A stretch of DNA of 53,098 bases, from assembly GCA_002753505.1 (NCBI GenBank), contig PEAG01000016.1:1-53098 (forward strand). Reading direction: 5' to 3'. Positions 10,259 to 48,728 of the stretch are shown piece by piece (position 1 is the first letter of the stretch; every line of letters begins with the position of its first letter). The position numbers and the translations under genes were made by a program. A model generated the notes under the pieces. That model was given only the letters and a program-made list of their open reading frames with translations. It had not been told where the DNA came from and searched no databases. The DNA is from Magnetococcales bacterium HCHbin5. Lineage in GTDB: Bacteria > Pseudomonadota > Magnetococcia > Magnetococcales > Magnetaquicoccaceae.

Positions 10259-10706
10259 CAATTGCAGGGGCCTGGGGACCGTCACGGTCCCCAGTGGGGT
10301 GCAGGGGCGAAGCCCCTGCATGTAACGGGCGCGCTTTCCCAAAAGCCCATTTGCGCAGCAAATGGGCGCAGCGCGCCCAAAACGCCCCGCAGGGGCACTC
10401 CTGGAGGGCGGCAGCCCGACCGAAAGCTGGCCAAATTGGGGAGGGCTTGGGAAAAGAGCGTTCCTGGCCTTATCTCAAACAAAACTTCGAACATCCGCAC
10501 GTTCTGGTTTCTTGTCCAAACATTTTCCATAACTGAAACGTGCGAGTCGGGCTGCCGCCCTCCCAAGGTCGCCCCTGCGGGGCGGTTTTGTGCGCGTTGC
10601 GCCCATTTTCTGCGAAAATGGGCTTTGGGAAAACGCGCAGTTCATGCAGGGGCTTTGCCCCTGCACCCCACTGGGGACCGTGACGGTCCCCAGACCCCTG
10701 CAATTG
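10259..10706. repeat. Composite inverted-arm element 1 (type I arm / spacer / type II arm)
   Basis: The left arm 10259-10420 (reverse orientation, type I, AGGAGTG tag) and the right arm 10546-10706 (forward, type II, AAGGTCG tag) face each other across a 125-bp spacer (10421-10545). Each arm contains several hairpins. The long one is GCCCATTTGC/GCAAATGGGC in the left arm and GCCCATTTTC/GAAAATGGGC in the right, both with a TGC loop. Both outer ends finish in CAATTGCAGGGG next to T- or A-rich flanks. The spacer shares blocks such as CTGGCCAAATT and TTCTGGTTT with the copies at 13761 and 25140. No transposase is present. The element fills the convergent gap between pssA and lpoB. Confidence 0.9.
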
Positions 10707-13600: not shown

Positions 13601-14066
13601 ATTGCAGGGGTCCGGGGACCGTCACGGTCCCCGGTGGGGTGCAGGGGCAAAGCCCCTGCATGTAACGGGCGCGCTTTCCCAAAAGCCCATTTGCGCAGCA
13701 AATGGGCGCAGCGCGCCCAAAACGCCCCGCAGGGGCACTCCTGGAGGGCGGCAGCCCGACTGAGAGCTGGCCAAATTTGAGCGGGTTTGAAAAAAAACCG
13801 TTCCTGGCCTTGTATCAAACGAGAAGCTGAATATTCGAAGGTTCTGGTTTTTTATCCAAATATTTTCCACGACATAACCGTGCGAGTCGGGCTGCCGCCC
13901 TCCCAAGGTCGCCCCTGCGGGGCGGTTTTGTGCGCGCTGCGCCAATTTTCTGCGAAAATTGGCTTCGTAAAAGCGCGCAGTTCATGCAAGGGCTTCGCCC
14001 CTGCACCCCAGCAAGGGCTTCGCCCCTGCACCCCACCAGGGGGATGATCCCCCTGGACCCGCAATC
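13601..14066. repeat. Composite inverted-arm element 2 (type I arm / spacer / type II arm)
   Basis: The left arm 13601-13760 (type I, reverse), the spacer 13761-13885 (125 bp) and the right arm from 13886 (type II, forward) have the same order and orientation as element 1. The long hairpin of the right arm is GCCAATTTTC/GAAAATTGGC. The usual GGGGACCGT palindrome at the right end is replaced by CCAGGGGGAT/ATCCCCCTGG (14036-14056). A 25-bp tandem duplication precedes it. The element lies in the divergent gap between the COG3014-type gene and murF. Confidence 0.88.
13986..14035 (+). repeat. Two 25-bp direct repeats inside a repeat arm
   Basis: Positions 13986-14010 and 14011-14035 are identical 25-mers beginning GCAAGGGCTTCGCCCC and ending CACCCCA. 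Other arms have a single copy of this module, in the form GCAGGGGCTTTGCCCCTGC. It is a local duplication unique to this arm in the window. Confidence 0.9.
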
Positions 14067-14217: not shown

Positions 14218-15618
14218 ATGGCTCTTACGCTTGCACTTTTCGGTGATACGACAACAGATGTGCCCCTGCGGGGCCTCTCCATCGACAGTCGAACCCTCCA
14301 ACCGGGAGAACTCTTCGCCGCTGTGCGCGGGGAACGGTTCGACGGACACCACTTTATTGAACAGGCCGTCGCCGCCGGCTGCGCCGCCGTGTTGGCAGAA
14401 CAGCCACCCGCAACACCCCCCCCGGTCCCGCTGCTGATCGTGGAAAATGTGCTGCAAACCCTGGGCGAGGCGGCCCGACGTTGGCGCGATCAGGTCAACC
14501 CCCTGGTGCTGGCCGTCACCGGCTCATGCGGCAAAACCACCGTCAAGGAGATGCTCACCCGCTGCCTGCAACAAAAATTTGCCAGCGTCCACGCCACCCG
14601 TGGCAACCTGAATAACCATATCGGCCTGCCCCTGACCCTGCTGGCCATGCCGGAAAACTGCCAGGCCCTGGTGGTTGAACTGGGCATGAGCGCAGCCGGC
14701 GAAATCGCCTACCTGGCACAACTGGCCAAACCGGATATCGGCATCATCACCAACGTGCAACCCGCCCACCTGGAAGCCTTCGCAAACCTCGACGCCATCG
14801 TCGAAGCCAAAGCGGAGTTGCTCGAAGCCCTCCCCACCCACGGCGTGGCCATCTTTCCCTTCGGGCAACCCTACACCCCGCGACTACAGCAAAAAGCAGG
14901 AGAGGTGAACACACGAACATTCGGCCCCAACCCACCCGCTGACATCTTCTACCGCAGCGCAACAACAACCGAACCCAACCCGCCGGAAAAAACAGCCGCC
15001 AACCTGTTCACCATCCATTGGCAAGCCGAACAAGATGGCGTACAAACCCGCCTGGGCCAGCACGGCGAACACCTGCGCCAAAACGCCCTGGCCGTGGCGG
15101 CCGCAGCCCGGGCCGCCGGCCTCACAACCAGCCAAATTGCAGCCGGCCTGGAAAACTTTGCACCACCAACCGGACGCGGAGGCATACGCCAAGCCCCCCA
15201 AGGCTGGCGCGTGGTGGATGACAGCTATAACGCCAACCCGGGCTCGGTACAAGCCGCCCTGCAAGCCCTGCCGGAACCCGCCCAACCGGGACGACGCATC
15301 GCCGTGCTGGGGGATATGCTGGAATTGGGCAAAGAGGCAGAAATGTTGCATGCAGGACTGCTCCCGGCCCTGATCAGCAGCGGCGTCTCCCTGCTGTTTA
15401 CCGCCGGCCCCCTGATGCAGGCCCTGCATCAAGCCGTACAAGCCCATCCCTGGCAGGCCGGAGAGCAGCCCATCACCGCATGGCATCGCCCCGACCCCGC
15501 CGATTGGCTTGAACAGATTGCACCCCAGCTTCAACCGCAAGATGTGGTGCTGGTCAAAGGATCCCGTGGGATGAAAATGGAACGTATCGTCAACAACTTG
15601 GTGACTCATGCTCTATAA
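14218..15618 (+). CDS. murF: UDP-N-acetylmuramoyl-tripeptide--D-alanyl-D-alanine ligase
   Basis: MurF adds D-Ala-D-Ala to UDP-MurNAc-tripeptide (466 aa). The N-terminal substrate domain has [20 protein letters not shown]. The ATP-binding P-loop is [14 protein letters not shown]. The central domain has [22 protein letters not shown] and [10 protein letters not shown]. The C-terminal domain has [15 protein letters not shown]. The ATG at 14218 follows AAAGGGG. It heads the first dcw block instead of following murE as in most bacteria. Its stop overlaps mraY by 11 bases. Codon third positions favour C and A. Confidence 0.97.
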
Positions 15619-16696
15619 TCTGCTCTTTCCGCTGAGCGACTACTGGTCGGCTCTGAACCTGTTCAAATATATTACTTTTCGCAGCATTGGCGCAACATTG
15701 ACCGCCCTGCTGCTCTCCTTTCTGGTGGGACCATGGCTGATCCGCTCTTTGCAAAAATTGCAAACCAGCGGACAACCGATCCGCAGCGACGGACCCCAGC
15801 GGCATATCCTGGAAAAAACCGGCACCCCCACCATGGGCGGCACCCTGATATTGCTGGCCATGGTCATCCCCACCCTGCTGTGGGCCAACCTGACCAACCC
15901 ATTCATTATCCTGGTGTTGTGTACAACCCTCAGCTTTGGTGCCATCGGATTCTGGGATGACTACCGCAAATTGACCCGGAAAAATACCAAGGGCATCTCC
16001 GCCCGTACCCGCTTTTTATTGCAAAGCGGCATCGCCCTGGCCGCCGCCTATACACTGCAAAATGTCGACCCTGTCGGCTCCTACGGCGGTCTGGCGATTC
16101 CGTTTTTTAAAAATCTCTCCCTGGATCTGGGCATACTGTTTTTTCCCTTTGCCATCCTGGTCATCGTGGGCACCAGCAACGCGGTCAATCTGACCGACGG
16201 CCTGGATGGCCTCGCCATCGGCCCCACCATGCTGACCGCCGCCACCTTTTTGATCATCGCCTACGTGACCGGCCACTCCCACTTTGCCAACTATCTCGGC
16301 ATCCCCTACGTACCTGGGGCGGGGGAGTTGGCCATCTTTTGCGGTGCCATGGTGGGAGCCGCCCTGGGCTTTCTGTGGTTTAACACCTACCCGGCACAGG
16401 TTTTCATGGGCGATGTAGGCTCCCTCGCCCTGGGAGCCGCCCTGGGCACCATCGGCATGATCACCCGCCACGAAATTGTGCTGGCCATCGTCGGAGGCAT
16501 CTTCGTGGTGGAAACCCTCTCGGTCATCGTCCAGGTCGCCTCCTTCAAACTGATCGGCAAGCGGGTCTTTCGCATGGCCCCCATCCATCACCATTTTGAA
16601 CTGAAAGGGTGGGCAGAACCCAAAATCATCGTCCGCTTTTGGATCATCTCCATCATACTGGCCCTGATCGGCATATCGACCTTGAAAATTCGCTAA
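15608..16696 (+). CDS. mraY: Phospho-N-acetylmuramoyl-pentapeptide-transferase
   Basis: MraY transfers phospho-MurNAc-pentapeptide to undecaprenyl phosphate, making lipid I in the inner membrane (362 aa, about ten helices). Motifs seen are TPTMGG, the catalytic [39 protein letters not shown] and the [11 protein letters not shown] histidine motif. The start lies inside the end of murF. The next gene is ftsW 24 bp downstream; murD, which normally lies between them, is absent. Confidence 0.97.
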
Positions 16697-16720
16697 GATC
16701 TGGAAAAACAGAGGGAACAG

Positions 16721-17944
16721 ATGCAATTCAACCTGCTCAAGGACCGCTTGAAAAAAGCCAACCCCGCCAAATCGACGGCTGATCGGGAAAACACCGCCAA
16801 TACCGGAGATGGCCCCATGGATCTCTGGCTGGCCGGTACCGCCTTCGCCCTGCTGATCATCGGTCTGGTCATGGTCTATTCCGCCTCAGCCCCCATCGCC
16901 GCACGCAATTTTGGCGACGCCACCCACTTCGCCCTGCGCAATGCCGTCTTTGCCCTGGTGGGCATCGTCTCCATGGTCGCCATCAGCCGCCTGCCCGTCG
17001 ATTCCATTCGCTATCTGGGACGCATCGGCTTCTGGATCTCCCTGCTGCTCCTGGTGGCCGTGTTGATTCCCGGTATGGGACTGGAGGGCGGGGGCGCACG
17101 CCGCTGGCTCAACTTTCGTGTGATCACCGTCCAACCCTCCGAACCCTTCAAGGTGATGCTGGCCCTCTACACCGCCCACCTGATCGCCCAGGATGCCGGC
17201 ATGGTCCACCGTATCCGGGATGGCATCGTCTACCTGCTGGCCATCTTTGCCCTGGGAGCGGCACTGCTGATGGCTGAACCGGACTTTGGTGCCACCGTCA
17301 TCAGTGCCGCCGTGGTCTTCGGCATTGTCTTCATCGCCGGCATCCCCCTCTCCTGGATCGCCACCCTGCTCACCATCGCCGTCCCACTGGCGGCCATGGC
17401 CGTCATCATGGCCCCCTACCGCTTCCGCCGCGTCACCTCGTTCCTCGACCCCTGGGACGACCCGCAAAACAGCGATTTCCAACTGGTTCAATCGCTGCTC
17501 TCTTTTGGCAATGGCGGCGTCTTTGGTACCGGGCTGGGACAGGGAGAGCAAAAACAGTTTTATCTGCCAGAATCCCACACCGACTTTATCTTTGCCGTCA
17601 TCGGTGAGGAGATGGGGTTGGGACTGGTCTGGTTGATTATTTTTCTGTTCGCGTTCCTCGTTTGGCGTGCCGTCCAGATCGCCCGCTTCAGCACCGATCC
17701 CTTTGTGCGTCTGAGCACCACCGGTCTGACCGTACTGATCGGTTCCCAGGCGGTTGCCAATATGGGGGTGGTGATGGGCCTCCTCCCCCCCAAAGGGTTG
17801 ACCCTGCCCCTGGTCAGCTATGGCGGCTCCTCTCTGGTCATCACGTTGAGTGCCATCGGCCTGCTGTTGGCCTTTTCCCGCACCGTCACCCTGCCCGACA
17901 AACCCAGAACATCAACCGCCAACCCACGGGAGAAAGCCTCATGA
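16721..17944 (+). CDS. ftsW: Division-specific lipid II polymerase FtsW
   Basis: FtsW is a SEDS-family peptidoglycan glycosyltransferase (407 aa) that works with FtsI at the septum. A polar cytoplasmic N-terminus of about 35 residues precedes ten predicted helices. Visible motifs are GGGARRWLNF, AEPDFGATVI, the catalytic-region FLDPWDDPQNSDFQLVQS, LPESHTDFIFAVIGEE and PLVSYGGSS. GAGGGAACAG precedes the ATG. It overlaps murG by ATGA, indicating coupling with lipid II synthesis. Confidence 0.96.
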   Translation: MQFNLLKDRLKKANPAKSTADRENTANTGDGPMDLWLAGTAFALLIIGLVMVYSASAPIAARNFGDATHFALRNAVFALVGIVSMVAISRLPVDSIRYLGRIGFWISLLLLVAVLIPGMGLEGGGARRWLNFRVITVQPSEPFKVMLALYTAHLIAQDAGMVHRIRDGIVYLLAIFALGAALLMAEPDFGATVISAAVVFGIVFIAGIPLSWIATLLTIAVPLAAMAVIMAPYRFRRVTSFLDPWDDPQNSDFQLVQSLLSFGNGGVFGTGLGQGEQKQFYLPESHTDFIFAVIGEEMGLGLVWLIIFLFAFLVWRAVQIARFSTDPFVRLSTTGLTVLIGSQAVANMGVVMGLLPPKGLTLPLVSYGGSSLVITLSAIGLLLAFSRTVTLPDKPRTSTANPREKAS

Positions 17945-19068
17945 CCGCCGAGGGAAAAAAATTGATCATTGCCGGTGGCGGAACCGGCGGCCATATTTTT
18001 CCCGCCATCGCCATCGCCGATGCCTGGGAAGCCAGTGGTGGCGAGGTGCTGTTTGTCGGCACCCCCCACGGCATGGAAAGCCGCCTGTTGCCTCAGCGGG
18101 GCAAACGATTGGAATTGCTGACAGTAGGGCAAATCAAAGGCAAGGGGCTGGCGGTCCGCTTGCGCACCCTGCTGGGCCTGCCCGCCGCCCTCTATTCGGC
18201 CTGGAAAATTATTCGCCACTACCAACCGGACGCCGTGTTGGGCATGGGCGGCTATGTCTCTGCGCCTACCGTGGTGGCAGCCCGGTTACTGGCCATTCCC
18301 ACCGCCTTGCATGAGCAGAATGCACGCCCCGGGTTGACCAATCGGCTGTTGGGCAAAATAACCGATCGGATCTTTGTCTCCTTTGCCGAGGCCATCCCTA
18401 CTTTTCAGGCTCAACAAACAGCCACAACCGCCCGGGCGTCACGGGTGGTTGTGACAGGCAACCCGGTTCGTACCGCCCTGCGGGAGGAGAGCCAACAGGA
18501 GGCCATTCTCGCCGGGGACCGCCCCTTCCGGTTGTTGGTTTTTGGTGGCAGCCAAGGAGCCCGCATATTCAGCGACCTGTTGCCCCCTACCCTGCAAAAA
18601 ATCATGGCCAGCGGCATGCCGGTGGAAATTCGCCACCAGGTACCTCAGGAGGATCTCGCCCGCGTGCAGGCCAACTACGAAAAACTGGGCATCACCGCCA
18701 CAGTTGCACCCTTTTTCCAGAACATGGCCGCTGCCTACCGGGAAGCAGACCTGATCATCTGCCGGGCCGGTGCCACCACCGTGGCCGAATTGGCGACTGT
18801 GGGCAAACCCGCTCTCTTCATCCCCTACCCTTTCGCCGCCGATGACCACCAGACCGCCAACGCCCTGGCCATGGTACGGGCCAACGGTGGCTGGATGCAA
18901 CCACAACAGGCATTGACCATCGAATGGTTGACAGAGTTTCTGCTGGCACGCATGGCAGACCCAGAGGGGTTGATCGCCGCCGGACGACAGGCTTTGAGCC
19001 TGGCCACCCCCCGATCCGCCCAGCTGATTGTCGATCAACTCTTGGCCCTGATTGCAAAAAAATACTGA
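17941..19068 (+). CDS. murG: UDP-GlcNAc--lipid I GlcNAc transferase
   Basis: MurG makes lipid II by adding GlcNAc to lipid I on the cytoplasmic membrane face (375 aa, GT28 fold). The glycine-rich N-terminal loop is IAGGGTGGHIFPAIAIADAW. GMGGYVSAP and HEQNARPGLTNR follow. The C-terminal donor domain has VFGGSQGARIFSD and ICRAGATTVAELATVGKPALFIPYPFAADDHQ. The start lies in the ftsW stop. It is the last gene of the murF block; a 134-bp gap with a promoter separates it from rsmH. Confidence 0.97.
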   Translation: MTAEGKKLIIAGGGTGGHIFPAIAIADAWEASGGEVLFVGTPHGMESRLLPQRGKRLELLTVGQIKGKGLAVRLRTLLGLPAALYSAWKIIRHYQPDAVLGMGGYVSAPTVVAARLLAIPTALHEQNARPGLTNRLLGKITDRIFVSFAEAIPTFQAQQTATTARASRVVVTGNPVRTALREESQQEAILAGDRPFRLLVFGGSQGARIFSDLLPPTLQKIMASGMPVEIRHQVPQEDLARVQANYEKLGITATVAPFFQNMAAAYREADLIICRAGATTVAELATVGKPALFIPYPFAADDHQTANALAMVRANGGWMQPQQALTIEWLTEFLLARMADPEGLIAAGRQALSLATPRSAQLIVDQLLALIAKKY

Positions 19069-19164
19069 ATGCCGCCCGCAGGACAAGCCTTGTTTGCCCA
19101 GGGCCAAAAATATCGTTAACACCCCCGCACCCTCTCATGGAACCGTGCCTCCAGCCCACTTCCT

Positions 19165-19173
19165 TGCTATAAT
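19165..19173 (+). promoter_or_regulatory. Extended -10 promoter for rsmH-ftsL-ftsI-murE
   Basis: TGCTATAAT (19165-19173) is an extended -10 element with a consensus hexamer. No good -35 is seen at 16-18 bp, as expected for this class. Initiation would fall near 19180, 14-23 bases before the possible rsmH starts. It makes the second dcw block an independent transcription unit. Confidence 0.55.
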
Positions 19174-19202
19174 TTGTCGAAAACTGTGATTGAGTGAAAC
19201 CG

Positions 19203-20303
19203 ATGAGAGAGAAAGCCAGGGGGAAATCCCCCGCTTCAACCGCACCTGGAGCCAAACATCAGAGCGTTTTGATGCAAGAGGTGCTGGCGGCTCTGCGTCC
19301 CGTGCCAGGGGGAACCTATGTGGATGCCACCTTCGGCGACGGCGGCCATACGGAGGCCATCCTGCACCACATCGGCCCTGCCGGCCGGCTGTTTGCGCTG
19401 GATCGAGATCCGTCCGCCTTCCATCGAAATGCGGCACTGTTGGAGCGGTATGGAGAACAACTGACCGTCATCCATACCCCCTTCAGCCAGTTGAAAACGG
19501 TTTTGGCCGCGCAGGCTGTTGTGGCCGTCCACGGCATACTGTTCGACCTGGGGGTCTCCTCTCGACAATTGGATGAACCGGAACGAGGCTTCTCTTTCCA
19601 AAGCGATGGGCCCTTGGATATGCGCATGGATCAATCTGCAGATGCCCTGTCACCTCAGACCGCCTCTCTGCAAAAACAGACACCTTCTGAACGGATAACG
19701 GCCGCCACCATTGTGAACACCTTTGAAAAAGAGGCCCTGGCAGAGCTGTTTTTTTGTTTTGGCGAGGAGCGTCATGCCCGCCGTATTGCGGCAGCCATCG
19801 TCATGGATCGTCAACGGCAGCCCTTTACCACCACCCGGCAATTGGCCGCCCTGCTGGAACGGATCATGCCCGGCGGTCAGGCCGCCATTCATCCCGCCAC
19901 CCGGGTCTTTCAGGCGTTGCGCATCGCTGTCAATCGGGAACTGGAAGAGCTGCAAACCGGTCTCTCCCACGCCATGGAGCTGCTGACCGATGGGGGACGG
20001 GCGGTCGTGATCAGCTTTCACTCCCTGGAGGACCGGATTGTCAAACAGCTTTTCCGCCAGGCAACAGACCCTTTGCAACGCCCGCCGGGCCCGTCGGCAG
20101 GACCCCATTTGCTGGTTCAACCCCACGCCGTGACGCCCTCTTTCCGCCTGCTGACCCGCAAACCGCTCTCGCCCGGCCCGGCAGAGATTGGCAACAATCC
20201 CCGCTCACGCAGTGCCCGGATGCGGGCCATCGAGCGGTTGAGCGGGGGCCCCGGTGGCGGCGTAGCCGCCTTGCTGCCCGCCCATCTCCACGGCCAGCCA
20301 TGA
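19203..20303 (+). CDS. rsmH: 16S rRNA (cytosine(1402)-N(4))-methyltransferase
   Basis: RsmH (MraW) methylates N4 of C1402 in 16S rRNA using SAM (366 aa, longer than the usual ~315). Motifs are HQSVLMQEVL, the SAM-binding VDATFGDGGHTEAIL, FDLGVSSRQLDEPERGFSFQ, ALRIAVNRELEEL and ISFHSLEDRIVKQLFR. An insertion near residues 140-170 and a Pro/Gly-rich tail account for the extra length. The start is ATG 19203, with a GTG at 19194 possible; neither has a strong Shine-Dalgarno. mraZ, usually upstream, is absent. It overlaps ftsL by ATGA. Confidence 0.95.
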   Translation: MREKARGKSPASTAPGAKHQSVLMQEVLAALRPVPGGTYVDATFGDGGHTEAILHHIGPAGRLFALDRDPSAFHRNAALLERYGEQLTVIHTPFSQLKTVLAAQAVVAVHGILFDLGVSSRQLDEPERGFSFQSDGPLDMRMDQSADALSPQTASLQKQTPSERITAATIVNTFEKEALAELFFCFGEERHARRIAAAIVMDRQRQPFTTTRQLAALLERIMPGGQAAIHPATRVFQALRIAVNRELEELQTGLSHAMELLTDGGRAVVISFHSLEDRIVKQLFRQATDPLQRPPGPSAGPHLLVQPHAVTPSFRLLTRKPLSPGPAEIGNNPRSRSARMRAIERLSGGPGGGVAALLPAHLHGQP

Positions 20304-20569
20304 GACCGGGTTGGCCCATCCTCATGTTTTTGAGTGTTCTCCTGGTGTTGACAGCAGCCATCACCATCTCTTCCCGTGTCTGGATGCTGGAGAGTCATCG
20401 GGAGTTGACTCAGGAACAAAAACGGTATAACGAGCTCCTGGACAAGGAAAACGCCCTCCAGATAGAGTTGATCTCCCGCACCGACATGAACACCATCGAA
20501 CGCCGGGCCCGTCAGGAGCTGGGCATGCAGCCCCTTTGGCCCACCCAGTGGCGGGTGCTGAAACCATGA
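20300..20569 (+). CDS. ftsL: Cell division protein FtsL
   Basis: This 89-residue bitopic protein has a short cytoplasmic tail, one membrane helix (about 5-25, WPILMFLSVLLVLTAAITISS) and a periplasmic coiled coil (MLESHRELTQEQKRYNELLDKENALQIE). It ends in an RTDMNTIERRARQELGM segment typical of FtsL. FtsL joins FtsB and FtsQ in the complex that activates FtsWI. Identity rests on topology, length and position between rsmH and ftsI, with ATGA overlaps on both sides. Confidence 0.9.
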   Translation: MRPGWPILMFLSVLLVLTAAITISSRVWMLESHRELTQEQKRYNELLDKENALQIELISRTDMNTIERRARQELGMQPLWPTQWRVLKP

Positions 20570-23343
20570 AACCCATCCGCAGCAAAGCAACCGCCCCCAA
20601 AGCCACCAAACCCCCCATCACCAGTCGGTTGACGGGCGGCAAGAGTTGCGCGGTTCCCAAGCAGCGTCCCCATCGGGGTTCCCTGTGGCGGACCGCCAGT
20701 GGGGAAAAGCGATTTTCCCTGACCTGGCCGCGGCTGCCCTCTCTCTCCAACCCCCTGACATGGCGCAAGAAGGCCCCCTCTGCACCCCCGATCGACTCCC
20801 AGGATACAGAGGGTACAGCCCCCCGCAAAAAACATGCACTGGCCAAGCGGTGGATGGCGGCTGGCAGTCGCCTTGCCCTGGGAAACAAAATTACGGCCAT
20901 TCATCGGCGGCTCACCGCAACCCGTACGGTGGCCACGACCGGACAGGAGAGTGCAGAGGCAGCGGAACGACCCGCCAAACGGCACCGCCTGCGGGAAAAG
21001 TTGGGTTCCATCGGGCACAGGTTGGCGACCCAAAAGATGCCTGGTCTGCCACTGCGGCGCACTGTTCCGCCCCAATCTCCGGAGCAACCCAAACCCACCG
21101 CCAAGCCCGCCACCAAGCCCGCCACCAGGCGTGCCGACCGACCACTGGGGGACTCTCTGGCCCGCTTTGGCCTGGCTCTGTTGGGGAGCGGTTTTGCCCT
21201 GCTTGCCCTGCTGCTGCCCACCCAGCGGGCCGGCACCCCCGCCCCGCGCAAGCGACCACCGGTTGCCATCCATCTGCCAAAGGTGCCCGCCTTTCTGGCA
21301 CGCCGCACCCTGCAGGTGCCGGTTCAGAGTCCGGAGTCCATCGAAAAGCGTCTGAAATTTTTATTTGGCATGTTTTTATTGGCCTTTCTTGTACTGGCAG
21401 CCCGGGCGGTGGATCTGACCGTGGTTCAACACGAGACGCTGAAGGCCCGGGCGCAAAGCCAATATCGCAAACGCATTGTCACCCCTGCCCATCGGGGCCG
21501 CATCCTGGACCGCAATGGCAAGACCCTCTCTGTCAGTCTGCCGGTCAAATCTCTCTCGGTGGATGTGGACCGGATGGAGGATGCCGGCTTGTTGGCGGAA
21601 CGGTTGGCACCGTTGATCGACTGGCCGCTGGAGCAACTGCGTCATCGTCTCAGCAGTGCGCGCAAGGGCTCGTTTCCGGTTTTGCAGCACCAACTGACCC
21701 CAATGGTCATCCACAAAATTCAACAGATGGAAAACCCGGCCCTCTTTTTGACACCAGAGGTTCAGCGATTCTATCCCATTGGCGAGGTCACCTCCCACAT
21801 TCTGGGATTTACCGATTTTGATGGCCATGGTGTCGAGGGGTTGGAACGGTCCTTGGAGGCGAAACTGCAGGGAAAACCGGGGGAGACCATCTTTACCCAT
21901 GACCGTCTGGGGCAGCCCATGCCGATGGATCAGGCCGTCGAGACCGATCAACCGGGGATGGATGTGGTGTTAACCATTGACACCAACATTCAATATATTG
22001 CCTATCGCTCGCTCCTCAAGGGGATTACCAAAGCCCAGGCCAAGGGGGGTACCGTGATCGTCATGAACCCCAACAGTGGCGAGATCTACGCCATGGTCAA
22101 TCAACCGGGTTTCAATCCCAACAATCTGAGTGGGAGCAAGGCGGACGAACGGCGTAATCGGGCCATTGCCGATGCCTATGAACCGGGCTCCACCTTTAAA
22201 ACTTTTACCGTTTCCGCTGCCCTGGATCTGGGCCTGGTGAACCCCACCACCGGTTTTGATGTCCATGGAGGAACCCTCCGGGTTGGTGGCCGAACCATAC
22301 GCGACTTTCACACCGGCAAGCGTTGGCTCTCCGTGGCCCAGATTGTGGAGACCAGCTCCAATGTGGGGGCGGCCAAAATCGGCCTGTTGATCGGCAACGC
22401 CCATATGGATGAATACATCAACCGGTTTGGTTTTGGCAAAGCCACCGGGGTGGGGTTTACCAATGAATCTCCCGGTTCGGTGCCGGATATTTCCGCCTAT
22501 CGTATCGTCGGTTTGGCCAACCGTTCCTATGGGTATGGCATCACGGCCACCCCCTTGCAGTTGGCAACCGCCACCGCTGCTGCCATCAATGGCGGCCTTT
22601 ATTACAAGCCTCGTTTGATTGCCGGCAACCGGGTAAATGGTGAATTTATCCCCAACAAGCCGGAGGAGCCGCACCGGGTTCTCAAACCTGAAACCTCGGC
22701 CACCATGCGGGAAATTTTGGCCCTGGCGGTTGGCCCGGATGGTACCGCCCCGCAGGCCCGGGTGGAGGGATACACGGTTGCCGGCAAGACCGGTACCGCC
22801 CGCAAGGCCATGGGGGCACAGGGCTATGTCCGAGGCCACTATTTTGCCTCGTTCGTGGGGTTCATCCCGGTGGACAAACCGCAACTGCTCATCTATGTCA
22901 GCGTGGATGAACCGAAAGGGGTTTTTTACGGCGGGTTGGTTGCTGCCCCCATTTTCCGGGAGATTGCGCAGGAAATTTTGCCGCTGTTATCCATCTTTCC
23001 TGAAAATCGTACCGACCCTGAGCTGCCGCCCCTGTGGAAACCGACTCCTGATCCCAAAGAGGCACCCCAAACAAAGGCGGCTTCTGCGCAAAAGGGGGCC
23101 GTCAAGGCAGACCACAAGGGCCACGCCGACAGCAAGTCGGCCAAGAAGGGGGATAAAAAATCGGCCAAAAAAGAGGAGCCGGAGACCCCGCCGGAGGAGC
23201 CTTCGCCACTGCTGGATCTCAGTCTGGCGGATGCCCTGGAACAGCTGAAAAAAGAGGAGATCATTCCGCTCATCGAGGGTCATGGCCGCGTGGTGCGGGT
23301 GGAAAAAACCGCCGACGGCACGCCGCGTCTGTTTCTTGAATGA
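20566..23343 (+). CDS. ftsI: FtsI/PBP3 septal transpeptidase with unusual N-terminal extension
   Basis: This class B penicillin-binding protein cross-links septal peptidoglycan (925 aa; usual length 550-650). Catalytic motifs are intact: SxxK at S542-K545 (GSTFK), SxN at S597-N599 and KTG at 741-743. The expected signal anchor is about 264-282 (KFLFGMFLLAFLVLAARAV), followed by RGRILDRNGK. Before it lie about 260 extra residues, rich in Arg, Lys and Pro, with a second hydrophobic stretch at about 202-217. A Lys/Glu-rich linker (about 825-880) and a PASTA-like domain close the protein. The ATG overlaps the ftsL stop. Upstream ATGs inside ftsL give no better start. Confidence 0.93.
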   Translation: MKPIRSKATAPKATKPPITSRLTGGKSCAVPKQRPHRGSLWRTASGEKRFSLTWPRLPSLSNPLTWRKKAPSAPPIDSQDTEGTAPRKKHALAKRWMAAGSRLALGNKITAIHRRLTATRTVATTGQESAEAAERPAKRHRLREKLGSIGHRLATQKMPGLPLRRTVPPQSPEQPKPTAKPATKPATRRADRPLGDSLARFGLALLGSGFALLALLLPTQRAGTPAPRKRPPVAIHLPKVPAFLARRTLQVPVQSPESIEKRLKFLFGMFLLAFLVLAARAVDLTVVQHETLKARAQSQYRKRIVTPAHRGRILDRNGKTLSVSLPVKSLSVDVDRMEDAGLLAERLAPLIDWPLEQLRHRLSSARKGSFPVLQHQLTPMVIHKIQQMENPALFLTPEVQRFYPIGEVTSHILGFTDFDGHGVEGLERSLEAKLQGKPGETIFTHDRLGQPMPMDQAVETDQPGMDVVLTIDTNIQYIAYRSLLKGITKAQAKGGTVIVMNPNSGEIYAMVNQPGFNPNNLSGSKADERRNRAIADAYEPGSTFKTFTVSAALDLGLVNPTTGFDVHGGTLRVGGRTIRDFHTGKRWLSVAQIVETSSNVGAAKIGLLIGNAHMDEYINRFGFGKATGVGFTNESPGSVPDISAYRIVGLANRSYGYGITATPLQLATATAAAINGGLYYKPRLIAGNRVNGEFIPNKPEEPHRVLKPETSATMREILALAVGPDGTAPQARVEGYTVAGKTGTARKAMGAQGYVRGHYFASFVGFIPVDKPQLLIYVSVDEPKGVFYGGLVAAPIFREIAQEILPLLSIFPENRTDPELPPLWKPTPDPKEAPQTKAASAQKGAVKADHKGHADSKSAKKGDKKSAKKEEPETPPEEPSPLLDLSLADALEQLKKEEIIPLIEGHGRVVRVEKTADGTPRLFLE

Positions 23344-23353
23344 GTATGCGCAC

Positions 23354-24889
23354 ATGATCGCAACCAGTTCTTGCCGGGCTTTGGCGGCTCGTTGTGAGGG
23401 GGTGCGGATGCAGGGCCCGGACCTGCCGATCACCGGCCTCAGTGCGGATTCCCGCCAGGTAGCCCCCGGTTTTCTCTTTGCGGCCCTGGCCGGCACCCGC
23501 ACGGTCGGCAGCCATTTTGTGACAGCGGCCCTGGCGGCCGGGGCGGTGGCTGTTCTCCACGATGGCAGTCTGGAGCTGCCGGCGTCGGTGGCGCAGTTCA
23601 GCCATCCCAACCCCCGTCATGCGTTGGCCCTGTTGGCGGCTGCCTTTTATGGCAATCCTGCCCGGCAGATGCGCATGGTTGCCATCACGGGCACCAATGG
23701 CAAGACCAGCACCGCAGCGATGGTGGAGGCCATTTTGTTGCAGCAGGGCGAACGGGTTGGTGTGATTGGCACGACCGGTATCCGTTATCCCGGCTTTGAG
23801 CAGGCCAACCCTCTGACCACCCCTGACCCGGTTGCCCTGCATCGGCAATTGCGCAACATGGCGGACAACCGGTGCAGTTCGGTGGTGATGGAGGTCTCCT
23901 CCCATGCCCTGGATCAGCATCGAACCGCCGGTATTCCCTGGCAGGTGGCTGTTTTTACCCATCTGTCGCGGGACCATCTGGACTATCACCAAACAGAGCA
24001 GGCCTATTTTGACAGCAAGGCGGCCCTGTTTTTGCGGGATGGCCCTGCCAGGGCGGTTATTGGTATCGAAGAGCCCTGGGGGCAGCGGTTGGCGCAGCGG
24101 TGTTTGGGGGTTTTGCCGGTTGCCACCTTCTCCATCGGCCCACCCGTACATGCGCCTGTGGTGCCGCCACTGACCGATCCGGCCCTTGTCGCGCAGCCGT
24201 TTTATGCGGACGACATTGCACTCTCCTGGCTGGGGTGTCGGTTCAGGCTTCACACTCCGGTTGGGACTCTGCCTGTCACCCTGCCCGGTGCGGGTCGGTT
24301 CAATGTGGCCAACGCGCTGGCCGCCGCCGCCACCGGTTGGCAATTGGGTATCCCCGAGGCGACCATTGCGGCGGGTTTGCGGCAGTTCAGCCCGGCACCT
24401 GGACGGATGCAAACCGTTCAGGGGGGACAGCCCTTTGCGGTCGTGGTGGATTATGCCCACACCCCGGATGCGCTGGAGCGGGTGTTGCAGACGGCCAGGA
24501 GTTTGACAACCGGTCGTATCATTGCTGTTTTTGGTTGTGGTGGGGAGCGGGACAGCGGCAAGCGGCCGTTGATGGGACAGGTGGCCGCCCGGCTGGCGGA
24601 GCAGACCATTGTCACCGATGACAATCCCCGTTCGGAAGATCCGCAAGCCATTCGCGACGCCATTGTGCAGGGCTGTCGACAGGAAGCGGGTTCGGTAGAG
24701 GTGTTGCCAGATCGGGCCGAGGCCATCGCGCACGCAATCGCCATGGCTGACCCGGGTGATGCGGTGATTATTGCAGGAAAAGGCCATGAAACCGTACAGA
24801 TAACGGCCAAGGGCTGTCAGCCTTTCGATGATGTGCAAACCGCACGTCATTGTCTGGCCGCCCAGGGGTGGAAAGAGGTTTTGCAATGA
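23354..24889 (+). CDS. murE: UDP-MurNAc-L-Ala-D-Glu--meso-diaminopimelate ligase
   Basis: MurE adds meso-DAP to UDP-MurNAc-dipeptide (511 aa). The N-terminal ITGLSADSRQVAPGFLFAALAG is followed by the P-loop ITGTNGKTSTAAM, then MEVSSHALDQHR, FTHLSRDHLDYH and VVDYAHTPDALERVL. The DDNPRSEDP segment carries the DNPR signature of DAP-specific enzymes. The ATG at 23354 lies 11 bp after the ftsI stop without a strong Shine-Dalgarno; an ATG at 23282 inside ftsI is less likely. Third positions are strongly G/T-rich. The stop codon abuts a repeat arm, so no murF follows. Confidence 0.96.
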   Translation: MIATSSCRALAARCEGVRMQGPDLPITGLSADSRQVAPGFLFAALAGTRTVGSHFVTAALAAGAVAVLHDGSLELPASVAQFSHPNPRHALALLAAAFYGNPARQMRMVAITGTNGKTSTAAMVEAILLQQGERVGVIGTTGIRYPGFEQANPLTTPDPVALHRQLRNMADNRCSSVVMEVSSHALDQHRTAGIPWQVAVFTHLSRDHLDYHQTEQAYFDSKAALFLRDGPARAVIGIEEPWGQRLAQRCLGVLPVATFSIGPPVHAPVVPPLTDPALVAQPFYADDIALSWLGCRFRLHTPVGTLPVTLPGAGRFNVANALAAAATGWQLGIPEATIAAGLRQFSPAPGRMQTVQGGQPFAVVVDYAHTPDALERVLQTARSLTTGRIIAVFGCGGERDSGKRPLMGQVAARLAEQTIVTDDNPRSEDPQAIRDAIVQGCRQEAGSVEVLPDRAEAIAHAIAMADPGDAVIIAGKGHETVQITAKGCQPFDDVQTARHCLAAQGWKEVLQ

Positions 24890-24941
24890 TTGCAGGGGTC
24901 TGTGAAACGTCACGCTCCCCAGCGGGGTGCAGGGGCTTAAG
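24886..24941 (-). repeat. Short repeat arm left of composite element 3
   Basis: This arm has only the outer part of the repeat: the TTGCAGGGG end, the palindrome module (CACGCTCCCC half intact, other half decayed as TGTGAAACG) and the GCAGGGGC hairpin. It is cut at GCCCCATATA. It overlaps the murE stop. A linker of about 38 bp, ending CTTTAAACG, joins it to element 3. Confidence 0.75.
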
Positions 24942-24979
24942 CCCCATATACGCTAACGTGATTGCGATCTTCCTTTAAA

Positions 24980-25427
24980 CGATTGCAGGGGTCTGGGGAG
25001 CGTCACGCTCCCCAGCGGGGTGCAGGGGCAGAGCCCCTGCTGAACTGCGCGTTTTCCCAAAGCCAATTTTCGCAGAAAATTGGCGCAACGCGCACAAAAC
25101 CGCCCCGAAGGGGCGACCTTGGGAGGGCGGCAGCCCGACGCGCACGGTTGTATCACGGATAAATGCTTGGATGAGAAACCAGAAGCTTCGGACATTCCGC
25201 TTTTTGTTTGACACAAGGCCAGGGGTGTTTTTTTTCCAAGCTATGCCCAATTTGGCCAGCTTTCAGTCGGGCTGCCGCCCTCCAGGAGTGCCCCTGCGGG
25301 GCGTTTTGGGCGCGCTGCGCCCATTTGCTGCGCAAATGGGCTTCGGTGAAAGCGCGCCCGTTACATGCAGGGGCTTTGCCCCTGCACCCCACCGGGGACC
25401 GTGACGGTCCCCGGACCCCTGCAATTG
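24980..25427. repeat. Composite inverted-arm element 3 (type II arm / spacer / type I arm)
   Basis: The left arm 24980-25139 (type II, reverse) and the right arm 25266-25427 (type I, forward) enclose a 126-bp spacer (25140-25265). The order of arm types and the spacer are inverted relative to elements 1 and 2. The end palindrome of the left arm has arms CTGGGGAGCGT/ACGCTCCCCAG, altered on both sides yet still fully paired. The right arm has the CCGGGGACCGT form. With the short arms on either side it fills the 735 bp between murE and murC, where no gene is seen. Confidence 0.9.
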
Positions 25428-25468
25428 TTTAAAAAGATAAAAGTATGGGTAGGATCACCATGGTAGCG

Positions 25469-25531
25469 CATATGGGGCTTTGCCCCTGCACCCCACCGGG
25501 GACCGTGACGGTCCCCGGACCCCTGCAATTG
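25469..25531 (+). repeat. Short repeat arm right of composite element 3
   Basis: This mirror image of the short arm at 24886 begins CATATGGGGC, has the GGGGCTTTGCCCC hairpin and an intact palindrome with arms CCGGGGACCGT/ACGGTCCCCGG, and ends in CAATTG. A GTTTAAAAAGAT flank on its left repeats to its right as TTAAAAAAGATTA. From 25532 to murC at 25625 there is A-rich sequence and an AAGGTG Shine-Dalgarno. Confidence 0.85.
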
Positions 25532-25624
25532 TTAAAAAAGATTAAAAAAATATGGGTATGATCACAACCATCCGAAGCCGCCCATACCCGGCGGTCGCGT
25601 TTTTTTGCTAAAAGGTGCCCCACC

Positions 25625-27034
25625 ATGTATGAAAAAATTCGCACACTCCATTTTGTCGGTATCGGAGGGATTGGCATGAGCGGCATTGCCGAAGTGCTGC
25701 TCAATCTGGGTTACCGAATCTCCGGTTCCGACATGGCAGAGAATGCCTCCACAGAACGACTGCGCCGGATGGGAGCCACCATCTACCTGGGACATCGAGA
25801 GGAAAATATCGTGGACGCCGATGTGGTGGTCCACTCCTCCGCCGTCACCCACAACAACCCTGAAATGCAGGCCGCCCGCCGACTGCGCATTCCCATCGCC
25901 CGCCGCGCCGAAATGCTGGCCGAATTGATGCGCATCAAATATGGTATCGCCATCGCTGGCACCCACGGCAAAACCACCACCACCTCGATGGTGGCCACCC
26001 TGCTGGGCCGGGCCGGCATGGACCCGACCGTGGTCAACGGGGGCATCGTCAAAGCGTTCGACAGCAATGCCCGCCTGGGACACGGCGATTTCATGGTGGC
26101 AGAAGCCGACGAAAGCGACGGCTCCTTTCTCAAACTGTTTCCCATCATCGCCGTCGTCACCAACATGGACCCGGAACACCTGGACCACTACGGCAGCTTT
26201 GATCAGGTGCGCGCAGCCTTCATGCGCTTTGTGGAAAAAATTCCCTTCTACGGCTTGGCCGTGCTCTGCCTGGATCACCCGGAGGTGGCCGCCATGGTGC
26301 CCAAACTCACCGACAAACGGGTGATCACCTACGGCCTGAACCCCGGAGCAGACTATCAGGCCATCAACATCAGAAGAGAAGCAGACCGTACCCGCTTCCA
26401 GGTGAAACGCCAGGATCCGGTACAAGGCACCTCTGCACTGCTGGGAGATGTGGGGCTGGCCATGCCCGGCCACCACAATATCTGCAACGCCCTGGCCGCC
26501 ATCGCCGTGGCCATGGAACTGGAAATTCCCTGGTCGGTCATCGACCAGTCACTGGATCAATACAAAGGGGTGAGCCGACGGTTTGATCTGCTCTGCAACA
26601 GCCCGGAACGGGTCATCGTCGACGATTATGCCCACCACCCCAAGGAGATTGCCGCCACCCTGCAAGGAGCCAGAGAGGGGTTTGGACAGGAGAGGCGATT
26701 GGTGGCCCTCTTTCAACCCCATCGATACAGCCGCGTCCGCGACCTGTGGTCAGAGTTTCTGGGCTGCTTCCGGCAGGCTGACCTGGTGCTGGTCGACCAT
26801 ATTCACCCCGCCGGAGAGAGCCCTCTGCCCAATATCTCCCCAGCCGAAATGCACGACCAACTGCTGACAGGCATTCAACAACACAGCGGCATCCCAACCG
26901 CCCCCCTGCCCGGCGGTGACCTGCTGGTCGAGGGACGACAGGAGCTGGAGGCACTGCTGCAACCGGGAGATGTCCTGGTCTTCCTGGGGGCAGGCAGTAT
27001 TACAAAAAAAGCCCGCAATTTTGCCAAGCCTTGA
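25625..27034 (+). CDS. murC: UDP-N-acetylmuramate--L-alanine ligase
   Basis: MurC attaches the first amino acid, L-Ala, to UDP-MurNAc (469 aa). The N-terminal Rossmann motif is FVGIGGIGMSGIAEVL. The ATP-binding loop is IAGTHGKTTTTSMVA. EADESDGSFLKL and TNMDPEHLDHYG follow, and the C-terminal domain has VDDYAHHPKEI and LFQPHRYSRV. AAGGTG seven bases upstream supports the ATG. It is the first gene after composite element 3. Its C/A-rich third positions contrast with murE on the other side. Confidence 0.97.
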   Translation: MYEKIRTLHFVGIGGIGMSGIAEVLLNLGYRISGSDMAENASTERLRRMGATIYLGHREENIVDADVVVHSSAVTHNNPEMQAARRLRIPIARRAEMLAELMRIKYGIAIAGTHGKTTTTSMVATLLGRAGMDPTVVNGGIVKAFDSNARLGHGDFMVAEADESDGSFLKLFPIIAVVTNMDPEHLDHYGSFDQVRAAFMRFVEKIPFYGLAVLCLDHPEVAAMVPKLTDKRVITYGLNPGADYQAINIRREADRTRFQVKRQDPVQGTSALLGDVGLAMPGHHNICNALAAIAVAMELEIPWSVIDQSLDQYKGVSRRFDLLCNSPERVIVDDYAHHPKEIAATLQGAREGFGQERRLVALFQPHRYSRVRDLWSEFLGCFRQADLVLVDHIHPAGESPLPNISPAEMHDQLLTGIQQHSGIPTAPLPGGDLLVEGRQELEALLQPGDVLVFLGAGSITKKARNFAKP

Positions 27035-27051
27035 CCCTGTTGCCGGAATCT

Positions 27052-27092
27052 GCTCTGATACCCCTCCCTCGTTGGGGGCGGGGTGTCAGAGC
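27052..27092 (+). terminator. Long hairpin between murC and murB
   Basis: GCTCTGATACCCC (27052-27064) pairs with GGGGTGTCAGAGC (27080-27092) over 13 positions with a single wobble. An inner TCCC/GGGG stem extends it. It lies 17 bp after the murC stop and is followed by a T-rich but interrupted CTTCTTATCTCC. It could end or attenuate the murC transcript before murB. Confidence 0.55.
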
Positions 27093-27126
27093 CTTCTTAT
27101 CTCCTAAAATATAACGAAAAAACGCT

Positions 27127-28062
27127 TTGCTATACCCTATCGATCACTGGCTGGCCGAACTGCAGGAGCCTGTTTGGGTCAATGCACCGCTGGCAGCCCG
27201 CACCACATGGAAAATTGGCGGCCCGGCCCGTTGGCTGATCCAACCGGAATCGGTTTCCGGGTTGCAACAGCTGCTGCTCACCTGGCCTGCGGAGTTGCCT
27301 CGGCTGTTGTTGGGGGGGGGCAGCAATATACTGGTTGACGATAATGGGTTCCATGGCGTAATCTTGGATCTCACGGGCCGGATGAATCGATTGACCCTGC
27401 TCTCCTCTCCGACCGACGACACGGTTTTGCTCCGGGCAGAGGCCGGTGCGAGCACCCGGACCCTGGCCCATTTTGCCCGCAGCCATGGCTTGACCGGTGC
27501 AGAGTTTTTGGCAGGCATTCCGGGCAGCGTCGGCGGAGCCTTGCGAATGAATGCCGGGGCCTACGGCAGCGAGATGGCCGCCATTGTCGTTGCGTGCGAA
27601 CTGTTGGACGCCGAAGGGGAAATGCATACCCTGCCCGTACAACAGTTGGGGATGGGGTACCGAACCACCCGGATCCCGGCCGACTGGATCTTTTTGTCGG
27701 CCCAGTTGGTGTTGCAGCGAGGAGACCCTGTGGCAATCCGTGAACGGATGCGCAGCTTGAACCGGGCCCGACGCAACAGTCAGCCGTTGGCCTTCCCTTC
27801 GGCTGGCAGCACCTTCAAAAATCCCCCCAGCGGACCGCTGGCTTGGCAATGGATTGAGGCAGCGGGCATGCGGGGAGCCTGGGAAGGACACGCACAAGTA
27901 TCAGAGAAACATTGCAATTTTTTGATCAACCGGGGCGGTGCCCGCTCTCGGGACATGCGCGTTTTGATCGACCGTGTTCGGACAGGGGTAGACAAAGCGG
28001 GCGGGGGAGAGTTGGCGTTGGAGGTCGGCATTGTCGGCCCCCTGGGTTTGCTCGCCCTGTGA
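27127..28062 (+). CDS. murB: UDP-N-acetylenolpyruvoylglucosamine reductase
   Basis: This FAD- and NADPH-dependent enzyme forms UDP-MurNAc (311 aa, short type). NTTWKIGGPA-like TTWKIGGPARWLIQP opens the FAD domain. LGGGSNILVDD, FLAGIPGSVGGALRMNAGAYG, YRTTRIP and the catalytic Ser in GSTFKNP follow. SEKHCNFLINRGGA lies near the end. The start is uncertain: no ATG fits, and the TTG at 27127 has no clear Shine-Dalgarno. It lies 92 bp after murC behind a strong hairpin. Confidence 0.93.
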   Translation: MLYPIDHWLAELQEPVWVNAPLAARTTWKIGGPARWLIQPESVSGLQQLLLTWPAELPRLLLGGGSNILVDDNGFHGVILDLTGRMNRLTLLSSPTDDTVLLRAEAGASTRTLAHFARSHGLTGAEFLAGIPGSVGGALRMNAGAYGSEMAAIVVACELLDAEGEMHTLPVQQLGMGYRTTRIPADWIFLSAQLVLQRGDPVAIRERMRSLNRARRNSQPLAFPSAGSTFKNPPSGPLAWQWIEAAGMRGAWEGHAQVSEKHCNFLINRGGARSRDMRVLIDRVRTGVDKAGGGELALEVGIVGPLGLLAL

Positions 28063-28123
28063 ACTGGGCAGATGCGCCGTTGCGGGCAGGCGTGAACCAA
28101 ACAAACATTCGCATGGGTTGGCC

Positions 28124-29122
28124 GTGGATAAGACAAAAAAAATTGGCGTATTACTGGGTGGTTCCTCGACGGAACGGGCGGTCAGTCTGCGAAGCGGGGC
28201 GGCTTTGCTGGCCGCTTATCAACGTCTGGGTTGGTCGGTCGTTGCCATCGACACCCAGTTTGGACGAGAGCTGCCTGCCCAACTGTTGGCCCACGGGATT
28301 GAGGTGGCGGTCATCGCCCTGCACGGCCCCATGGGAGAGGATGGCAGCGTCCAGGGACTGTTGGAGGTGATGGAAATTCCATACACCGGTTCTGGCGTCA
28401 CGGCCTCGGCTCTCTGCATGAACAAGTTGATCAGCAAGCGTTTTTTTCAACAGATGGGTATCGCCACACCGGCCTGGGAAGAGGTGCGGCTGGCCCCTGG
28501 GGATCCGGACGCCTTGTCCCGGATGGTGGCAGATTTGACCCCCAGGTGGCAGGACAAGAGCTTTTTTGTCAAACCCGCCTCAGCCGGTTCCAGCGTTGGC
28601 ATCCGACGGGTTGGCCAGATAGAGGAGCTGGCAGCCGCCCTGACCGCCGCCGCTGCAGCGGCGGCACAACCGGGAGAAGCGGCGGAGATACTGCTGGAGC
28701 AGGAGGTTGTCGGTGCCGAAGTGACCCTCTCCATTCTGGATGGCACCCCGCTGCCGCTGATTGAAATTTGCCCGGTGGAGGGATTTTACGACTATTTAAA
28801 CAAATACACTCCAGGTAAAACCCGTTATCTGGTGCCGACTGAGTCCCTGTCGGTACAGGATATCCAAGGCGCAACAGATACGGGGCTGGCGGCCAGTCAA
28901 CGAATGGGATGCCGGGGCCTGCACCGGGTGGATATGATTGTTGACCGGGCGGGTTGTGCCTGGGTACTGGAGATCAATACCATACCCGGTTTGACAGAGA
29001 CCAGCCTGGCACCCAAAGCCGCCGCTGCGGCCGGGTTGACCTTTGACGCCCTGGCAGAACGGATCCTGGCCGGGGCCACGCGGGATTTAAGTTGCGCAAA
29101 CAAATTGCCACACTCTTTTTGA
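28124..29122 (+). CDS. ddl: D-alanine--D-alanine ligase
   Basis: Ddl makes the D-Ala-D-Ala dipeptide used by MurF (332 aa, ATP-grasp fold). Motifs are VLLGGSSTERAVSLRSG, ALHGPMGEDGSVQGLLE, GSGVTASALCMNK, the ATP-binding KPASAGSSVGI, and the metal-binding EINTIPGLTETSLAPKAA. The GTG at 28124 gives the normal N-terminus (VDKTKKIGVLLGG); earlier frames add residues unlike the family. An alanine-rich loop (about 180-195) is slightly longer than usual. The 3' end overlaps ftsQ by 31 bases. Confidence 0.95.
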   Translation: MDKTKKIGVLLGGSSTERAVSLRSGAALLAAYQRLGWSVVAIDTQFGRELPAQLLAHGIEVAVIALHGPMGEDGSVQGLLEVMEIPYTGSGVTASALCMNKLISKRFFQQMGIATPAWEEVRLAPGDPDALSRMVADLTPRWQDKSFFVKPASAGSSVGIRRVGQIEELAAALTAAAAAAAQPGEAAEILLEQEVVGAEVTLSILDGTPLPLIEICPVEGFYDYLNKYTPGKTRYLVPTESLSVQDIQGATDTGLAASQRMGCRGLHRVDMIVDRAGCAWVLEINTIPGLTETSLAPKAAAAAGLTFDALAERILAGATRDLSCANKLPHSF

Positions 29123-29778
29123 TTGGCCTGCTTGCAGCCGGTGTGCTAGGCTGGCGCGAGGCGAACAAGCCGGGCTGGTTTCCCCTGCAGGAGATGCGCA
29201 TCTCCGGCTTGGCCAACACAACGGTTGTCCAGGCCACGGAGGTGGTCGGGATTGAAAAGGGCGTCAACCTGCTGGGCGTCGAACCCAGGAGCGTCAAGAG
29301 CCGCATGGAAACGCTGCCTTGGGTACGATCTGTCCACGTCAAACGGCAGTTTCCATCCACCTTGATCGTGCGGGTGGTGGAAAAGGTGGCCGTGGGAATG
29401 GTACGGGAAAAAGATCGGTTGTTTTTGGTGGACGAGTATGGGGCAATCATCAAGCCGCTGGAAAAGACGGACCCCTTGATGTTGCCCATTATTGTCTCGG
29501 CTCCGGGAGAGGAGAAGGCGGCACAGGTGGTCTGGTTGATCAATCTGTTGTCAAAGCATGCGTGGCTGAAAGGTCGCATCTCCGAAGCCGTCGGGTTGCC
29601 GGGCGGACGTTGGGCGTTATACACCAAACAAGGTGTCAAATTATTGCTCTCCCAACAGACAGATCAGGGGCTGGAGCTGCTGCGCCGATTGCAGGAGCAG
29701 TTTGCCGTCCTGGATCGAAAAATACGCCAGGTTGAGCTGCGCATCCCAGGTAAAGCGATGGTTCGGTTTGCCTTGTAA
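29092..29778 (+). CDS. ftsQ: Cell division protein FtsQ
   Basis: This 228-residue bitopic divisome protein has one N-terminal helix (about 4-20) and a periplasmic POTRA domain (FPLQEMRISGLANTTVVQATEVVG...NLLGVEPRSVKSRMETLPWVRSVHVKR). The beta domain follows with FLVDEYGAIIKPL. It links FtsBL to the rest of the divisome. The TTG start lies within ddl and has a GGGA six bases upstream. The cytoplasmic tail is almost absent, shorter than in E. coli. Confidence 0.92.
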   Translation: MRKQIATLFLIGLLAAGVLGWREANKPGWFPLQEMRISGLANTTVVQATEVVGIEKGVNLLGVEPRSVKSRMETLPWVRSVHVKRQFPSTLIVRVVEKVAVGMVREKDRLFLVDEYGAIIKPLEKTDPLMLPIIVSAPGEEKAAQVVWLINLLSKHAWLKGRISEAVGLPGGRWALYTKQGVKLLLSQQTDQGLELLRRLQEQFAVLDRKIRQVELRIPGKAMVRFAL

Positions 29779-29926
29779 AAATGTGTAACAGGTGTCGTGA
29801 CCCCTTTCACATCGTGGCTATTGATGGTAAATAGGGTGTTGGGGGGGAGTGTTTGTCTCCTGCGTTTGTGACGGGTTTCAGGTCTGAAACAGAGTTTATC
29901 CAATCCTTTTTCCAAATGGACATGTG

Positions 29927-48520: not shown

Positions 48521-48649
48521 TATGCAGCTCCTTGGCTGGAATGGATTGTCCGGCCAGGATAGCGCAAAACAACCTCTACCAAAAGAACTTTTTTCACCCG
48601 GTATGCCGCAGGCACGCAAGGCGTCGGCCGTTGCGGCTCAATCTTTTTT

Positions 48650-48700: not shown

Positions 48701-48728
48701 GCAACAGAATACAGTGTTTGGGGGCAGG

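Follow-up and report, generated by a model that had tools for sequence, protein, structure and literature searches.

The genome of Magnetococcales bacterium HCHbin5 (4.19 Mb in 200 contigs) contains a hairpin-rich repeat of 445 bp in ~280 copies, mostly at gene ends; multiplying ~280 copies by ~445 bp gives an estimate of roughly 3% of the genome. The repeat probably belongs to the REP/BIME/REPIN class as an interspersed, non-autonomous foldback element, in a form specific to one Magnetococcales lineage, and it is proposed to spread in trans. In the window, i.e., the whole stretch of DNA that was analyzed (contig C112, 53,098 nucleotides), the three complete copies and the copy cut by the left edge that were described in an earlier note are indeed present, and a fifth copy, cut by the right edge, can be added (Table 1). 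A motif search of the entire genome with up to three mismatches yielded 282 type I and 193 type II arm motifs, and the same search with a reversed control pattern gave no matches. Among the 40 of 423 candidate regions that BLAST scored, the full-length matches listed were 90-93% identical to copy 1.

Table 1. Copies of the repeat and solo hairpins in the window. The core of the element runs from ATTGCAGGGG to CCCCTGCAAT.
Feature	Position	Strand	Basis
Copy 1, whole core	10261-10704	+	sequence
Copy 1, type I (left) arm	10261-10417	+	sequence; alignment of 64 copies
Copy 1, 131-bp spacer	10418-10548	+	arm-pair search; alignment of 64 copies
Copy 1, type II (right) arm, inverted vs. type I	10549-10704	+	sequence, arm comparison
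Copy 2, whole core	about 13601-14066	+	sequence
Copy 2, type I arm	13601-13757	+	sequence, arm-pair search
Copy 2, spacer	13758-13888	+	arm-pair search
Copy 2, type II arm, outer hairpin altered	13889-14066	+	sequence
Copy 3, whole core, reverse orientation, between murE and murC	24982-25425	-	sequence
Copy 3, type II arm	24982-25136	-	sequence, arm-pair search
Copy 3, spacer	25137-25268	-	arm-pair search
Copy 3, type I arm	25269-25425	-	sequence, arm-pair search
Copy 4, type I arm plus the initial bases of its spacer end, truncated by left contig edge	1-162	-	
Copy 5, arm fragment (outer end), truncated by right contig edge	53054-53098	+	repeat family D1
Solo outer hairpin beside copy 3	24889-24944	.	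repeat families D1, D3
Solo outer hairpin, other side of copy 3	25475-25534	.	repeat family D4
Solo outer hairpin beside copy 5	52947-53002	.	repeat families D1, D3

Each arm is about 157 bp long and is a chain of perfect hairpins. Its outer hairpin (GGGGACCG TCA CGGTCCCC) is followed inward by a second one (TGCAGGGGC AAA GCCCCTGCA) and by the arm hairpin, which is enclosed by GGGCGCGC and has a TTTCCCAAAA-like bulge on one side; next come a GCCCC hairpin and the tag, and a GGGC/GCCC junction completes the arm. The initial description of the arms as two unlike structures was overstated: they are inverted copies of each other with a mean identity of 87%, and the element as a whole is a long foldback repeat. 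The spacer is shared between copies, as had been claimed, but its length is not the 125-126 bp given at the time. Between the GGGCTGCCGCCC junctions, it mostly measures 131-132 bp, with a range of 121-366 bp, the longer spacers holding variable internal tandem repeats, e.g., five copies of TGAATATCCGAACCTT. Also the limits originally assigned to the element were too short, since conserved AT-rich flanks, TAATCTTTTAAAAC and GTTTAAAAG, lengthen it by ~20 bp on the left and ~14 bp on the right. At the right end of copy 2, the sequence is altered, with GGGCTTCGCCCCTGCACCCC duplicated and CCAGGGGGATGATCCCCCTGG as end hairpin. Solo outer hairpins adjoin the element in many copies and are apparently tandem duplications. 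Short tandem arrays were found in 14 of the 89 element-bearing intergenic regions vs. 1 of 321 others; these arrays, with units of 4-12 bp, adjoin the elements, e.g., in L051 (about 15440), L054 (about 5000), and L038 (about 3300). Such an array also often forms the linker that joins end hairpin and arm in relatives (e.g., L175 and L074). A separate near-perfect palindrome, CGGCAGGGGTCTGGAGAGCATGAGGATCCCCAGACCCCTGCCG, which resembles the outer hairpin, stands alone at 48643-48710 in the window.

The pairing of the arms was surveyed in ~1.1 Mb of the genome, divided over a first sample of 735 kb and a second one of about 396 kb. The first sample contained 89 facing pairs, comprising 78 I/II pairs, 10 I/III pairs, and one type I arm facing an unclassified right arm, and the second one added 17 pairs (11 I/II, 5 I/III, and one I/hybrid of II and III). 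Type III arms, which carry the tag AGGAGTCTG, are related to type II. The left arm, at the constant end of the spacer, was type I in all 106 facing pairs, and the right arm was type II or III in 104 of them, a II/III hybrid in one and unclassified in one; neither I/I nor II/II pairs were found among these 106. Hence, the pairing of type I with type II on a common plan, as proposed from the window, is strict in the pairs checked, with type II or the related type III as the right arm. The picture that the earlier note had set against its own proposal, i.e., mostly single arms that do not share a spacer, is not what is seen: unpaired arms occur at contig or stretch ends, as partial duplicates adjoining complete copies, or in one split remnant. 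This remnant on contig C190 (L070, 669-5600) consists of a degenerate type I arm and a degenerate type II junction, between which lie two paralogous genes for proteins of about 518 amino acids each; this suggests that a copy was broken by duplication or insertion. Two copies in L036, 2.6 kb apart (at about 7700 and 10290), are nearly identical and share their flank, which looks like a recent segmental duplication.

The positions of the elements relative to genes were determined with a simple codon-usage caller, in a first sample of contigs that were chosen for having copies and in a less biased second sample. In the first sample, 75 of the 89 elements were located in an intergenic gap, and the other 14 had no called gene nearby. 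Elements occupied 33 of 53 convergent gaps, 36 of 225 tandem gaps, and 6 of 53 divergent gaps, which corresponds to an odds ratio of 9.3 for convergent gaps (p = 6e-12). In the second sample, 8/25 convergent, 6/125 tandem, and 0/22 divergent gaps were occupied (p = 1e-4), and convergent gaps were enriched also in the same-genus sister genome G006 (7/30 vs. 9/119, p = 0.02). In favoring convergent and unidirectional gaps over divergent ones, the element resembles REP dimers, which are mainly found between convergent and unidirectional genes (PMC3733652). Pneumococcal repeats, too, are enriched between convergent genes, one reading of which is that insertions downstream of genes are tolerated (PMC3049150). 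In gaps between tandem genes, the element was oriented opposite to the genes in 30 cases vs. 6 in the same orientation (p = 7e-5), and in 6 vs. 0 cases in the second sample; therefore, transcription from the upstream gene enters the element through the right (II/III) arm. An orientation driven by replication was rejected, as the inferred leading strand was matched in only 48 of 89 elements. In the window, a mur/fts cluster for cell-wall synthesis and division (14218-31165; gene names read from translations) has the order murF, mraY, ftsW, murG, mraW-like, ftsL-like, ftsI-like, murE, murC, murB, ddl, ftsQ-like, ftsA-like, and is interrupted by copy 3 between murE and murC.

The whole element, as RNA or DNA, folds into one foldback with a z score of about -24 to -26 relative to shuffled sequences. 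The long pairing between arms I and II shows no covariation in an alignment of 64 full-length copies (82.7% paired vs. 82.3% shuffled), and a I-II mega-hairpin as a selected structure was therefore rejected. The local stems within the arms do co-vary, with 81.2% of the variable-column cells paired vs. 71.2% after shuffling in the same 64 copies. In eight clean hairpins, 4,150 cells match the consensus, 174 show double Watson-Crick changes, 2 are G-U pairs, and 4 are mismatches; half-changed stem pairs thus represent 6 of the 180 changed cells. Selection on RNA alone is commonly expected to proceed via G-U intermediates. Since G-U and other half-changed pairs are nearly absent, a simultaneous change at the DNA level is favored; the pattern fits a mode of evolution in which both sides of a stem would change at once, by hairpin-templated copying or by replacement of the whole hairpin. 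Template switching can maintain hairpins by simultaneous changes, as was reported for RNA genes, and the near absence of half-changed pairs in this element makes a clear case for that idea (PMC8794818). It also calls for caution, as covariation alone is not proof of an RNA function.

Among the 64 aligned copies, the mean pairwise identity is 91.1% and the median nearest-neighbor identity 94.9%, and the only near-identical pair is the product of a segmental duplication. Linkage between variants (mean r2) drops from 0.32 at 1-5 bp to 0.045 at 31-60 bp and is at chance level beyond 120 bp (0.016-0.020, with an expectation of 0.016). Distances calculated from far-apart segments are essentially uncorrelated, and in the spacer all four combinations of variants are present at 85% of the site pairs that are 6-10 bp apart. 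Thus, the copies look mosaic because variants in distant parts are unlinked, with the caveat that the assembly is fragmented and probably based on short reads, so that chimeric joins could add to this signal at long range and less at 16-60 bp. Short-read assembly, or recurrent mutation at a limited set of permissive sites, could make the copies look more mosaic than they are.

At three loci where a copy is present in this genome, the orthologous gene pair in G006 is separated by a short, element-free gap. Among the other gaps compared, one holds an element in both genomes and another in G006 alone. The empty sites that the earlier note recommended to look for therefore exist, and they show gain or loss of the element. 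After pssA, G006 has its own version of the element, G025 related hairpins, and G003 none. More generally, relatives have elements of the same architecture whose arms and spacers are different; some of these elements pair unlike arms. The search for target duplications, recommended along with that for empty sites, had a negative outcome, with no excess of direct repeats at any tested offset in 75 copies. Absence of target duplication is expected for REP-type elements. As reported before, no transposase was seen inside the copies or beside them. In about 1.1 Mb of this genome, no autonomous relative that shares the ends was found; the sole widely spaced I...II pair (about 809-5370 in L070) was rejected as an autonomous parent, as it is the split remnant in L070 around paralogous non-transposase genes. 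Phages, plasmids, and viral contigs gave no match. As for a REP-associated transposase, which had been suggested as the enzyme to search for, a single RAYT-like gene was found in the genome, on contig C130 (L090, 1189-1863, minus strand), but its product scores 72.6 bits with NF047646, below the family cut-off of 80, and linkage to elements was not found. No element motifs are present at this locus or at sampled Y1 transposase loci of relatives, and an action of RAYT in cis was rejected. The gene adjoins a tyrosine-recombinase-like frame and a possible broken IS91-like transposase, both recognized from translations only. Because it is below the cut-off and not flanked by elements, and because G005 contains element matches and no detectable RAYT, the encoded protein is only a candidate for the mobilizing enzyme.

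The element might alternatively be a MITE, i.e., a deletion derivative of a cut-and-paste (DDE) transposon, with the arms as terminal inverted repeats that differ from each other by descent from one master copy. Such an origin would explain the long inverted ends, the left/right polarity fixed in 106 of 106 pairs, and the presence/absence differences with the sister genome. It is nevertheless unlikely, considering that target-site duplications, which characterize MITEs, are absent at every tested offset, that no copy was found with a transposase between the arms, the one wide pair holding non-transposase genes, and that variants in distant segments are unlinked, unlike what simple descent from one master would give.

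The orientation of the element, which follows transcription (30:6, then 6:0) and not the inferred direction of replication, and the covariation of the local stems would also suit a structured RNA element of 3' untranslated regions that is kept by selection on its fold, e.g., for protection of transcript ends. The possibility of a structured RNA had been raised before; in its pure form, it is weakened by the low number of G-U and half-changed pairs (6/180 changed cells), which points to simultaneous change at the DNA level, and it is rather improbable also in view of the variation in spacer length via tandem repeats, the lack of matches of the window to Rfam at gathering scores, the many empty convergent gaps, and the sister genomes without copies at orthologous gaps. 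That the element separates convergent genes as a bidirectional transcription terminator or insulator is very improbable, even though this would account for the strong convergent enrichment and although the pssA gap of G003, which lacks the element, contains by eye a hairpin-like feature followed by a T-rich stretch. Ordinary terminators are not depleted at element-bearing convergent 3' ends (8/82 vs. 5/66; few were detected overall, which makes this a weak test), and replacement of terminators by the element was rejected on this basis. Furthermore, there is no clear T-run after the end hairpins, and copy 3 is located inside the mur/fts cluster.

By its location and form, the element is within the broad REP/BIME class: it is a high-copy, extragenic, palindromic interspersed repeat, which supports the earlier suggestion of a BIME-like or non-autonomous mobile nature. 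The assertion that no described element has such a heterodimeric plan was too strong, since heterodimers and hybrid dimers of REPs had already been described, in some cases with a conserved spacer (PMC3733652). REP dimers of the GTAG and CGTC families likewise consist of inverted palindromic units around a spacer, often with unlike partners and in high copy number, but their units measure 20-40 bp and carry a GTAG or CGTC tag (PMC3733652), whereas the arm of the element comprises ~157 bp with several hairpins, the tag is not conserved, and heterodimers are universal (106/106). GTAG is present on either strand in only few of 77 copies, and CGTC lies inside the outer hairpin; next to the junction stem, it is present in only a minority of copies. 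REPINs are similar in being non-autonomous, extragenic pairs of inverted palindromic units that can form one hairpin, with remnant-looking singlets and tandem clusters with flanks; they differ in their short REPs, usually variable spacers, and linked RAYT, whilst the element has far larger arms, a conserved spacer, and an unlinked RAYT-like gene (PMC3116915, PMC8049555). Enterobacterial BIMEs are also extragenic and high in copy number, and share with the element a mosaic of REPs in alternating orientation, but their sequence is another one and their mosaic is variable, unlike the fixed, polar unit of 445 bp (PMC2817692). Pneumococcal BOX elements resemble the element as composite modular repeats with variable internal tandem units that are overrepresented between convergent genes; their sequence is unrelated, and boxA and boxC are described as distinct modules around boxB arrays, whereas the arms of the element are inverted copies (PMC3049150). 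Novel features of the element are its large and complex arms, a polarity that is strict in 106 of 106 pairs amid reassorting variants, the scarcity of half-changed stems, and the orientation linked to transcription.

If the element is a trans-mobilized foldback repeat of the REP/BIME/REPIN class, its working unit would be a single arm that folds on itself, in single-stranded DNA or at transcript 3' ends, rather than a giant hairpin of both arms. The stems may be kept perfect by hairpin-templated copying (template switching) or by whole-hairpin replacement, and exchange of short tracts between copies would generate the mosaics. If the arms were identical, they would form a long perfect palindrome of a kind removed by nucleases such as SbcCD, which may be why they stay different. 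A similar idea was raised earlier for REP heterodimers, whose preferential formation has "no obvious explanation" and was proposed to allow for escape from hairpin-cutting enzymes (PMC3733652). Spread would occur in trans, with the unlinked RAYT-like protein as the only candidate enzyme, and the copies may be tolerated or used at 3' ends as putative transcript-end structures. Points against this assignment are the size of the arms, which exceeds that of any REP unit several-fold, the lack of a conserved GTAG/CGTC tag, and the below-cut-off score and missing linkage of the RAYT-like gene.

More tentatively, the copies may form a population of large heterodimeric palindromes that recombine with one another; segments would move freely between copies, but the arms would never become alike and the two sides of a stem would change only together. 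If true, the element would be a natural record of hairpin copying at the DNA level and of selection against perfect long palindromes, with a placement that is tied to transcript 3' ends. With ~280 copies, all 106 checked pairs heterodimeric and other variants mixing freely, the puzzle of the REP heterodimers (PMC3733652) is directly testable in this organism.
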